NCBI RefSeq assembly: GCF_002288365.1
Contig: NZ_CP016782.1
Location: 496,001 to 560,000 of the forward strand
Origin: Candidatus Planktophila limnetica
GTDB lineage: Bacteria; Actinomycetota; Actinomycetes; Nanopelagicales; Nanopelagicaceae
DNA: 64,000 nucleotides
Reading direction: 5' to 3'
A program made the translations under genes and the position numbers. Numbering within the stretch: the stretch's first letter is position 1; every line of letters starts with the position of its first letter. Positions 4,345 to 41,229 of this stretch are shown here, in pieces. The notes under the pieces were generated by a model. It was given only the letters and a program-made list of their open reading frames with translations. It was not told where the DNA came from and did not search any database.

Positions 4345-5703
4345 TTAAAACCTTTCGAAGTTTCGGAATAATTCCCAGTCGGTAACAGCTTTTGCATATG
4401 CAGAGATTTCAACGCGAGCCATATTTGCATAGTGGGCTTGGACTTCATCGCCGAAAGTTTCTTTCACCCATGCGCTCTTTTCCCACAGATCGAGGGCTTC
4501 GTTCATGGTTGAAGGTACACGGGCAGAGTCTGAAACATATGCATTACCTGTAAATGCAGGTTCTAGTTTCATCTTCTTATTAATTCCATCTAGCCCAGCC
4601 GCAATAATTCCTGCAACAGCTAGATAAGGATTGACATCGCCTCCAGGAATGCGGTTTTCAAGGCGCAAACCTGCACCGTGGCCTACAAGTCGGAAAGCAC
4701 ATGTGCGGTTATCGCGTCCCCAGCGAATTGCTGTTGGAGCAAAGGATCCCGGCACATAACGCTTATATGAGTTGATATTTGGTGCAAAGAGAAGTGATAG
4801 CTCGCGCATGTGTGTGAGTTGGCCGGCAATAAATTGGCGACCAAGTTCTGACATGCCATGTTCTTTATCTGAATCATCTGTCATGACTAATTCGCCATTT
4901 AATCCACGGAAAGATAAGTGAATGTGTGAAGAATTACCTTCGCGCTCATTTGGCTTTGCCATAAATGTCAGCGCATATCCCGCTTCGGCTGCGATTTCTT
5001 TTGCGCCATTTTTATATATAACGTGTTGATCGCAATTTGAAAGCGCATCAGAGTATTTAAATGCGATTTCATGCTGACCGAGATTACATTCACCTTTTAC
5101 GGATTCAACAGTCATTCCTGCTGCTGACATGCCAAGTCGTATTTCACGAAGTAGCGGTTCAATGCGAGAGCCACCCAAGATTGAGTAATCAACGTTGTAT
5201 TGGTTAACAGGAGTCAGATCACGGTATGCCTTATCCCATGCTTCTTCGTAGGTATCTTTGTAAACAACGAATTCGAGTTCGGTTCCACACATTGCCTGCA
5301 TGCCAGCTTTTTCCAGATTAGCAATTTGCTTGCGCAGAATCTGGCGGGGAGATGCAACAACAGGGGTGTGATCGAGCCACTGAACATCGGCTAGAACAAG
5401 GGCTGCGCCTTCTTGCCAAGGAATTAAACGAAGGGTGTTGAAATCTGGTGCGAGTTCAAAGTCGCTATAACCGCGTTCCCAGGATGACATTTCATAACCT
5501 TGCACGGTATTCATATCAACATCGACTGCTAGAAGATAGTTGCAACCTTCTGTGCCATGTTTTAGAACCTCATTGAGAAAGTGATCTCCGTGAATTCTCT
5601 TACCTGTAAGCCGGCCTTGCATATCTGTCATTGCAACGACGACTGTGTCGATGGCACCTGATTGGATTGCAGCGGTTAATTCTTCAATTGATAGTGAACT
5701 CAT
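4345..5703 (-). CDS. glutamine synthetase-like gamma-glutamyl amine/polyamine ligase
   Basis: ATP-dependent ligase of the glutamine synthetase fold, 452 residues, closer to PuuA/GlnA3/GlnT-type proteins than to the ammonia-assimilating enzyme (a normal type I glnA lies at 46492-47922). Metal and substrate motifs are visible: GTELEF, GECNLGQHEI, GNSSHIHLS and NRTCAFR. Such proteins attach glutamate through its gamma-carboxyl to putrescine, ethanolamine or similar amines. The reading frame extends to a TTG at 5730, but that codon abuts the T-tract of a terminator, so ATG 5703 (MSSLSIEEL) is preferred. It is followed directly by the aldehyde dehydrogenase and preceded by the permease. The exact amine is not deducible. 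Confidence 0.85.
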   Translation of the reverse strand: MSSLSIEELTAAIQSGAIDTVVVAMTDMQGRLTGKRIHGDHFLNEVLKHGTEGCNYLLAVDVDMNTVQGYEMSSWERGYSDFELAPDFNTLRLIPWQEGAALVLADVQWLDHTPVVASPRQILRKQIANLEKAGMQAMCGTELEFVVYKDTYEEAWDKAYRDLTPVNQYNVDYSILGGSRIEPLLREIRLGMSAAGMTVESVKGECNLGQHEIAFKYSDALSNCDQHVIYKNGAKEIAAEAGYALTFMAKPNEREGNSSHIHLSFRGLNGELVMTDDSDKEHGMSELGRQFIAGQLTHMRELSLLFAPNINSYKRYVPGSFAPTAIRWGRDNRTCAFRLVGHGAGLRLENRIPGGDVNPYLAVAGIIAAGLDGINKKMKLEPAFTGNAYVSDSARVPSTMNEALDLWEKSAWVKETFGDEVQAHYANMARVEISAYAKAVTDWELFRNFERF

Positions 5704-38761: not shown

Positions 38762-39406
38762 CTAAGCACTGACAATTGCTGAGATCAAGACCGATATTCC
38801 AAGAATAATCATCACTGTTCCACCTGTTGCGCGTAGTTTTTCTAATCTTTTCGGATCAGTTGCCAACCATTGACGTGCGGTGCCCGCTAGTAAACCCCAG
38901 GATCCATCGGAGATAAATGCCAAAATGGAAAAAACTGCACCAAGAAAAATTAGCTGAAGCGCAACGCTTCCTTTTTCGCGATCAACGAACTGCGGCAAAA
39001 CTGCGGCATAAAAAACTAAACCTTTTGGATTAAGCGCTCCAACCCAAAACCCATCGCGGACAGAACGCGCAATGCCCGGAGCGATATCGCCTTGATTGCG
39101 CATATCTTCAGCGTGTACTCGTCGATGTCTGATGGCATCCACGCCTAGGTACATGAGATACAAACCGCCACCCCATTGAATAGCGGCGTATGCAAGATCA
39201 GATCTTTGAAGTACTGGTCCTAGTCCAATTGCCACAAGAGTAGAAAGTGCAAAGGCACCAGTGACATTTCCTGCAACTGTAAAGACTGCTGTTTTGCGGC
39301 CCCAGGCAATCGCTCGAGCGATAACGAATAAAACACTTGGTCCTGGCGCCAAGATGATCACCATCGCGGCCACGATGTATTCAGGTAGCCGCGAAGGAAT
39401 GACCAT
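38762..39406 (-). CDS. LysE/RhtB-family amino acid exporter
   Basis: Six-helix exporter of 214 residues. The N-terminal PEYIVAAMVIILAPGPSVLFVIARAI and the following glycine-rich GNVTGAF are diagnostic of the LysE/RhtB family, as is GALNPKGLVFYAAVLPQF. Substrates are amino acids such as threonine or homoserine; not assignable here. The start is ATG 39406 with TAAGAT 6 bases upstream on the minus strand. It is divergent from padR across a 196-bp region. Confidence 0.88.
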   Translation of the reverse strand: MVIPSRLPEYIVAAMVIILAPGPSVLFVIARAIAWGRKTAVFTVAGNVTGAFALSTLVAIGLGPVLQRSDLAYAAIQWGGGLYLMYLGVDAIRHRRVHAEDMRNQGDIAPGIARSVRDGFWVGALNPKGLVFYAAVLPQFVDREKGSVALQLIFLGAVFSILAFISDGSWGLLAGTARQWLATDPKRLEKLRATGGTVMIILGISVLISAIVSA

Positions 39407-39412
39407 AGCGGC

Positions 39413-39418
39413 ATCTTA
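39413..39418 (-). promoter_or_regulatory. -10 element TAAGAT, leaderless promoter of the LysE exporter
   Basis: On the minus strand TAAGAT is followed by 6 bases and ATG 39406. Confidence 0.6.
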
Positions 39419-39470
39419 TGGCGAGAGGGATTGAGCCCACAGGTTGGTAGAAGAGGATGGGTAGTGGATT

Positions 39471-39530
39471 AGACGCCGGAAGGTGGCCCTGGCGCAGGGC
39501 GAGCCGAGTTGCCTGCCGGCTGCGTATCGG
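39471..39530. other. GC-rich, foldable island; candidate structured RNA
   Basis: About 75% GC by hand count over 60 bp, in DNA otherwise far richer in A+T. A perfect hairpin GCCCTG-GCG-CAGGGC (39486-39500) sits inside an outer pairing GCCGG (39475-39479) with CCGGC (39116-39120 counted within the line, i.e. 39516-39520). No coding potential is apparent. The strand is uncertain; it lies between divergent lysE and padR. Confidence 0.4.
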
Positions 39531-39547
39531 GTTAACTAGCGCTTCGT

Positions 39548-39564
39548 TATATCGAATCGATATA
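39548..39564. promoter_or_regulatory. candidate PadR operator, inverted repeat TATATCG-AAT-CGATATA
   Basis: A perfect 7-bp inverted repeat with a 3-base centre lies 38 bp before the padR start. PadR proteins often repress their own operon, so this is the best candidate site controlling padR-ino1. Confidence 0.55.
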
Positions 39565-39602
39565 CCTACCGATAGTTCAGCCCGAATGGAAGGAGAATTC
39601 AA

Positions 39603-40130
39603 ATGCGCTCGCGTAGTGAGTCACTCGAATTCGCCCTCCTTGGACTTCTTTCACAGAGTCCGCTTCACGGCTATGAACTTCGCAAAAGAATGAGCGCCAT
39701 ATTTGGTCCATTTCGCGCACTCTCATTTTCTGTTCTCTATCCGCAATTACGCAAAATGATGGAAGCCGGACTCATTGATGCATCCGTGGCTGACACATCT
39801 CGGCGCTCGCGAATTGTTTATGTGATCACAGCAAAAGGAACGAAACGCTTTGAAACTCTGGCAGAGACAGTAAGTCCTGATACATGGGAAGACGAAGGTT
39901 TTGAAATTCGCTTTGCATTCTTTGGTCCAACATCGACTAAGAATCGCGTACGAATTTTGGAAGGCCGACACCGTCGGTTGAAAGAGAAAGCAGAGATTTT
40001 GCGTGGAGAGCTCGAAAAATCTCCCGTGGGAATCGATAAATATCTCGAAGAGTGGCGTCGTCACTCTTTGGAATCAGCACAGCGAGAAATCGACTGGCTG
40101 GAAGACATGATCAAAACCGAGAGGAAATAG
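39603..40130 (+). CDS. PadR-family transcriptional regulator
   Basis: A 175-residue winged-helix repressor. [21 protein letters not shown] is the characteristic PadR N-terminal helix-turn-helix (about residues 10-30), followed by [18 protein letters not shown]; the C-terminal half is the helical dimerisation domain. A clear AAGGAG lies 9 bases before ATG 39603. It is directly upstream of ino1 (1 bp between stop and GTG), an arrangement conserved in actinobacteria, and probably controls inositol synthesis. Confidence 0.92.
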
Positions 40131-40131
40131 A

Positions 40132-41229
40132 GTGAAAATAACAACCGGTAAAGGCGATATCCGAGTTGCAATCGTTGGCGTTGGAAACTGCGCTAACTCT
40201 CTAATTCAAGGCGTTGTCTATTACAAAGATGCTGCCCGCGACCAAGAGATTCCAGGACTGATGCACGCTGTTGTTGGGGGATACCACATCAATAACGTCA
40301 AGTTCGTTGCAGCATTTGATGTCGATAAGAAAAAAGTCGGTCTAGACATGGCAGATGCCATCTGGGCGAGTGAAAACAACACTATTAAATTCGCCAATGT
40401 TGATAAAACAGGCGTTGAAGTTTTGCGTGGAGTTACACATGATGGCCTTGGTCGTTATTACCGCGAAACAATCGAAGAGTCATCTGCAGCGCCAGTTGAC
40501 GTTGTAGCAGTTCTCAAGGAAGAGCAAGTAGATGTACTTATTTGCTACTTGCCAGTGGGATCAGAAGTTGCAGCGAAGTTCTATGCACAGTGTGCAATTG
40601 ATGCAGGATGTGCTTTTGTTAATGCACTTCCAGTCTTTATTGCATCTGACCCAGTATGGGAGAAGAAATTTGCTGATGCCGGTCTACCCATCGTTGGCGA
40701 TGACATCAAGAGCCAGGTAGGTGCAACTATTACGCACCGAATCATGGCTAAGTTATTCCAAGATCGCGGTGTTCACCTTGATCGCACCTACCAATTAAAT
40801 GTTGGTGGAAACATGGACTTTAAGAACATGCTTGAGCGTGATCGCCTAGAGTCCAAGAAGATTTCAAAGACCAACTCAGTTACATCACAACTTCATCATG
40901 ATTTGGGTGAAAAGAATGTTCACATCGGACCTTCTGATTACATTCCATGGCTAGATGATCGAAAGTGGGCCTACGTTCGCCTCGAAGGTCGTGCTTTCGG
41001 TGATGTTCCTCTAAATCTTGAGTACAAGCTAGAAGTATGGGACTCACCAAACTCTGCTGGTGTAATCATCGATGCGCTTCGCTGCGCAAAGATTGGTCTT
41101 GATCGCAAAATTGGTGGAGCACTTCTTTCACCATCTAGCTATTTCATGAAGACTCCACCAACTCAATACACAGATGAACAAGCACATGTTAAGACTGAAG
41201 ATTTCATTTCAGGAAAGCTTGATCGCTAA
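40132..41229 (+). CDS. ino1: inositol-3-phosphate synthase
   Basis: Converts glucose 6-phosphate to 1L-myo-inositol 1-phosphate with NAD+, the first step to phosphatidylinositol and mycothiol. It has 365 residues, the short actinobacterial form. The NAD motif [13 protein letters not shown] is at the N-terminus; [11 protein letters not shown] and [14 protein letters not shown] are the catalytic segments. GTG 40132 follows the padR stop by one base, with AGAGGAAA upstream. A strong bidirectional terminator follows. Confidence 0.94.

Follow-up and report, generated by a model that had tools for sequence, protein, structure and literature searches.

Promoter DNA and deletion-junction sequence most likely account for a GC-rich island upstream of padR-ino1 in Candidatus Planktophila limnetica

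Autoregulation of their own promoters is a general scheme described for repressors of the PadR family (PF03551). One example of such an autoregulated PadR-family promoter is described in passages of PMC6624303. In mycobacteria, the gene of an uncharacterised PadR-like regulator shares a transcript with ino1, and this regulator has been suspected to play a role in ino1 control (passages of PMC3899939), and in M. smegmatis the expression of both genes falls on zinc addition (passages of PMC7174638). As well, a stop mutation in Rv0047c was reported in two of four resistant isolates, which were possibly siblings (passages of PMC5571309). Binding regions of Rv0047c have been cited from a database, and the protein could not be purified (passages of PMC9953421). 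No operator sequence for the mycobacterial PadR-like regulator was found in the passages of PMC3899939, PMC7174638, PMC5571309 and PMC9953421.

A comparable padR-ino1 pair is present in Candidatus Planktophila limnetica, within the 64,000-nucleotide stretch of its genome analysed here (the window), where the padR stop codon and the ino1 start codon are one base apart. The 196-nt intergenic region between padR and a lysE-type gene holds a GC-rich island (Table 1). The 60-mer beginning at 39471 has a GC content of 73.3%, compared with a window mean of 45.2%, and is among the top 4 of the 63,941 60-mers of the window, of which the richest (75%) begins at 39472. It also ranks first in GC among the non-coding 60-mers of a 444-kb sample of the genome (runner-up 68.3%), which comprised the window and 19 stretches of 20 kb and in which crude ORF calling (minimum length 90 aa) left 127 non-coding segments of at least 60 bp. 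The figure of about 75% GC given in a preliminary description of the locus therefore holds. Its A+T-rich surroundings were overstated, since the 60-bp windows immediately flanking the island have 43–55% GC. Moreover, GC content over the 60 nt that precede the -10 region averages 57.7% in 80 relatives, compared with 49.6% in padR, and exceeds the value of the adjoining padR in 78 of the 80, with 29 at or above 60% and a top value of 70%, in a count whose anchor slipped onto a different TATC in about 15 loci. Thus, the island represents the extreme of a shared trait and not an oddity.

Table 1. Features in and around the island; positions are those of the window
Feature	Position	Strand	Basis
lysE-type translocator gene, divergent neighbour	38762..39406	-	PF01810, 98.3 bits
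Putative lysE -10 element TAAGAT, 6 nt before start codon	39413..39418	-	TANNNT in relatives
Orphan stretch at presumed site of lost permease	39419..39498		61% GC; last 28 bp (within island) 75% GC
GC-rich island, composite of two stretches	39471..39530		73% GC
Perfect hairpin letters GCCCTG-GCG-CAGGGC	39486..39500		straddles junction near 39499; not conserved
Predicted padR promoter -35 TTGCCT, inside island	39509..39514	+	TTG[CG] conservation
Conserved TATC(GG) just before the -10; possible additional PadR half-site	39525..39530	+	T65 A70 T75 C68 of 80
Predicted padR promoter -10 TAACTA, 18 bp from -35	39533..39538	+	conservation across loci
Perfect 17-bp palindrome TATATCGAATCGATATA, predicted PadR operator just past the putative start	39548..39564		conservation
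CCGATA, possible downstream half-site	39569..39574		moderately conserved
padR, PadR-family regulator, 175 aa	39603..40130	+	PF03551, 54.4 bits, cut-off 27
ino1, myo-inositol-1-phosphate synthase	40132..41229	+	PF01658, 126 bits

Comparison with the 80 padR-relative loci splits the island near 39499, and most likely the island consists of promoter DNA together with deletion-junction sequence. In our view it is highly probable that its right half is double-stranded regulatory DNA and its left half neighbouring filler at a deletion site, and that neither acts as RNA. What comparison of sequences brings out directly is the conserved letters of the predicted promoter and operator, the absence of a permease and the boundaries of homology.

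The right half of the island (39499–39530) is, as judged from conservation, the upstream part of a predicted padR-ino1 promoter that is shared among relatives. The comparison covered 81 loci, namely the window and 80 oriented relatives (L031–L110), which are the best 80 of 103 padR relatives and include freshwater actinobacteria labelled acI, Nanopelagicaceae or Candidatus Planktophila. In 79 of the 81 loci, TTG[CG] lies between -48 and -34 relative to the palindrome, and the -35/-10 spacer is 17–19 bp in 75 of the 81 when some off-consensus -10 forms are allowed; the -10 itself follows the rule in 72 loci and departs from it in nine. A generic sigma-70 scan found no promoter here, the padR -35 and -10 being off consensus, and the promoter assignment rests on this conservation. 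RNA polymerase would recognise TTGCCT and TAACTA, and padR transcription would start about 6–8 nt past the -10. Seven records of metagenome-assembled genomes titled Bifidobacterium breve or Streptomyces griseus (L042, L054, L068, L070, L075, L092 and L093) encode PadR proteins 82–88% identical to that of the window; these loci have Planktophila-like upstream neighbours where visible, and their titles look mislabelled. A search of viral contigs found no PadR.

On the other side of the intergenic region, TANNNT is present exactly 6 nt before the lysE start in 41 of 60 relatives' rows, compared with 7 of 2100 at other offsets, and also in 28 of the 44 rows in which a permease lies upstream of padR. 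Of the 19 rows that lack it at this distance, 15 carry TANNNT one nucleotide further off (by eye), two are pattern misfires, and L090 and L105 have neither. The lysE transcript is probably leaderless, and with the putative starts of padR and lysE so placed, the island would lie upstream of both transcripts.

A palindrome scoring at least 13 of 16 matches is found in all 81 loci, as the top-scoring 17-mer of the respective upstream region, a choice made with no shuffled control. In the 1.33-Mb genome, TATATCGANTCGATATA occurs at a single exact site, and the next best site has two mismatches. Of 197 Actinomycetes genomes, 32 contain its degenerate form, TRTATCGANTCGATAYA, always at a single site, with zero matches for the reversed-pattern control. 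The remaining 165 genomes of the class, including 12 of the 13 genus genomes in the set, lack this form; the right arm of the palindrome varies among relatives, and some of these genus genomes are also without a padR match (G087, G131, G143 and G149). Of the 32 genomes with the form, 30 yielded a locus, with L187 (a two-mismatch site and no exact site) left out. In 29 of these 30, two of which are this genome and one of the same family, padR lies 8–116 bp downstream and ino1 is present in the locus; the exception, L188, has neither gene alongside. When a looser palindrome is allowed up to two mismatches, a site is found in 71 of the 197 genomes (control zero). In 11 genomes in which padR had already been placed it lies 15–82 bp from the padR match, and in G137 it is not near padR.

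From the conservation of the operator and its adjacency to padR-ino1, we strongly infer that PadR binds the palindrome. Binding would probably take place at the transcription start, and PadR would probably repress its own operon, ino1 included, so that inositol synthesis would be tuned via one dedicated site. We put forward tentatively, with the balance somewhat against it, a fuller scheme in which padR-ino1 of Actinomycetes forms a self-contained switch, each genome having one regulator and one operator: PadR would sense a signal of the inositol pathway and bind CGATRTATCGANTCGATAYATCG, the operator in Planktophila would extend via TATC (39525–39528) into the island, and PadR would cooperatively cover the -35 and -10.

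As to the left half of the island, blastn homology to the six nearest relatives (97–99% PadR identity), followed from the left, ends at 39408 or 39418 and restarts at 39497–39499. Similarly, 17 of 135 genus genomes, this one included, match the intergenic region at E of 0.001 or below, and the other 16 matches all begin at query position 91 of 196 or later, that is, at 39497 or later. Therefore, 39471–39498 belongs to an 80-bp stretch for which no relatives were found. Its own genome contains no second real copy of this orphan stretch, a single piece of 14 bp being matched at E 1.27. The stretch gives only pieces of 16–27 bp at E of 0.012 or worse in 11 of the 295 others among 296 family genomes, and has no match in the phage collection.

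In L033 and L039, the gene order is nuclease, lysE and an NCS2 permease (assigned by PF00860) on the minus strand, followed by padR-ino1 on the plus strand. A permease start lies upstream of padR in 54 of the 80 loci, including all six nearest ones, where the permease adjoins padR; the remaining loci have lysE or nuclease upstream of padR, or end too soon. Within the genus, the permease was found in 76 of 135 genomes, many of which are incomplete, and it was not found in this complete genome. The 59 genus genomes without an NCS2 permease match include single-contig ones (this genome and G099), and repeated loss across the genus seems likely, with incomplete genomes inflating the count. By parsimony, which also sets the direction of the change, the permease would have been lost and not gained in this lineage, and the orphan stretch would sit at the deletion. 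The genomes of acI are streamlined and have very short intergenic regions (passages of PMC5301498), which fits gene loss. On this parsimonious reading, an ancestral divergent permease gene would have been deleted together with its upstream element, and the left half of the island would end the orphan stretch at that place.

The upstream element of the permease in relatives, GGYGTGGCGTAC...TACCCT, was observed as GYGTGGCGTAC, a 25-nt gap and TACCCT before the divergent permease at L031:2795-2881 (-) and at 43 further loci. Among 135 genus genomes, 26 have a single match to its strict pattern, each just upstream of the permease, and one control match was obtained (G216). At other loci the gap is 9–10 nt longer (eight rows), 4 nt shorter (L039) or 1 nt shorter (L103). 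Of 54 leaders, nine are without the core and 45 have it, 44 of which were aligned; RNAalifold on these 44 gave five pairs, none changed on both sides. The mean folding z was -0.96, with 19 of 45 sequences below -1, so the element may have weak structure; it has no Rfam match. A riboswitch was considered and rejected for this element, in view of the lack of pairs changed on both sides, the invariant TANNNT and the 25-nt gap fixed in 26 of 26 strict matches. The invariant TANNNT and fixed gap are more in keeping with a promoter and an activator site than with an RNA, and the element looks like a -10 with a putative activator site around -43.

Whether the left half derives from this element or from elsewhere can be weighed against the same comparisons. 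A diverged relic of the lost permease's upstream element would be at the correct location; five letters, ACGCC, align with the conserved TACGCC of relatives, and the permease-less L010 and L064 retain, by eye, apparent pieces of the region. However, 39419–39498 aligns locally to the leader or permease of the six nearest relatives no better than shuffles do, although the sequence from 39499 onward (promoter, padR and ino1 start) shares 93.2% identity with L031 over 708 columns. Also against a relic, the strict element pattern gave zero matches in this genome, a result weakened by the absence of the pattern from 50 of the 76 genus genomes with the permease, and we regard descent from the element as improbable. 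Foreign or filler DNA, inserted or captured at the permease deletion, is a somewhat better candidate and still an unlikely one. It agrees with the G-rich composition of the stretch (36 G of 80) and with the lack of any relative in the own genome, the family genomes or phages, but no source was found, and a stretch of 80 bp can hardly be traced to a source with confidence. A remnant of transferred DNA, as suggested in the preliminary description, may apply to the left half.

The preliminary description, which pointed to a hairpin nested in an outer pairing, suggested a small RNA or a cis-regulator of padR-ino1. As a rival reading, the island would thus be a structured small RNA or a leader RNA controlling padR-ino1. 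The letters are indeed there (GCCCTG at 39486–39491, a GCG loop and CAGGGC at 39495–39500; GCCGG at 39475–39479 and CCGGC at 39516–39520), and a perfect 6-bp hairpin in the GC-richest non-coding 60-mer sampled speaks for an RNA. The stability implied by "can fold" is nevertheless at chance level, with z = 0.10 for the plus-strand fold of the 60-mer (97 of 200 shuffles equally or more stable) and z = 0.32 for that of the whole intergenic region (122 of 200). Mononucleotide shuffling of the island also yields a perfect hairpin, with arms of at least 6 and a loop of 3–8, in 640 of 5000 cases. The plus-strand optimum of the 60-mer alone differs from the nested structure, and the 6-bp hairpin does form within the 196-nt plus-strand fold; the minus-strand optimum resembles the nested structure in a single fold, the shuffle comparison covering the plus strand. 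At gathering thresholds the window has no match in Rfam 15, 39380–39640 has none even at E up to 10, and 15 relatives gave nothing at the gathering threshold; a permissive scan of four relatives returned sub-threshold matches only, at 4606–4791 of three loci, far from the intergenic region. No intrinsic terminator (GC stem plus T run) was found on either strand of 39380–39640. Conservation and covariation in relatives, the check proposed for an RNA, likewise remain at shuffle level: in seven aligned sequences, the 11 nested pairs are paired in 46.5% of cells compared with 44.5% in shuffles, covariation is 0.134 compared with 0.125, and sliding the alignment by three columns pairs better (57.6%), so that the six nearest relatives do not conserve these pairs. 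Five pairs do change on both sides, compared with 3.6 in shuffles, and 106 of 500 shuffles reach five. In addition, half of the island is orphan sequence, and the whole would lie upstream of the putative padR start and the putatively leaderless lysE start. The island is probably not an RNA gene, and we consider the RNA reading very improbable. The suggestion of a cis-regulator of padR-ino1 survives as DNA, the right half being the predicted -35 and spacer of the conserved promoter, and is not supported as RNA.

The island shares a GC-rich hairpin with the structured RNAs of Rfam and matches no family of Rfam 15. The reading as promoter DNA with a deletion junction removes a candidate RNA and advises caution against taking GC islands for RNAs. 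The predicted PadR operator is a side result of value and provides a sharp and testable prediction. With autoregulated PadR promoters the locus has in common a PadR-family gene that is first in its operon and a palindrome at its own promoter, and it differs in the operator letters TRTATCGANTCGATAYA and in ino1 as target, with binding predicted; an operator with these letters and this target was not found in the literature searched. As in mycobacterial Rv0047c-Rv0046c, the padR-like gene is directly upstream of ino1 (passages of PMC3899939). Unlike here, where the palindrome is upstream of padR, the regulator treated in those passages is the LacI-type IpsA, with its site inside the Rv0047c ORF. 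The uncharacterised PadR-like gene beside mycobacterial ino1 (passages of PMC3899939) has, in many Actinomycetes, relatives whose own promoters carry a conserved palindrome. If PadR binds this palindrome, one dedicated repressor would govern inositol synthesis and, along with it, mycothiol and inositol lipids in organisms that make them.
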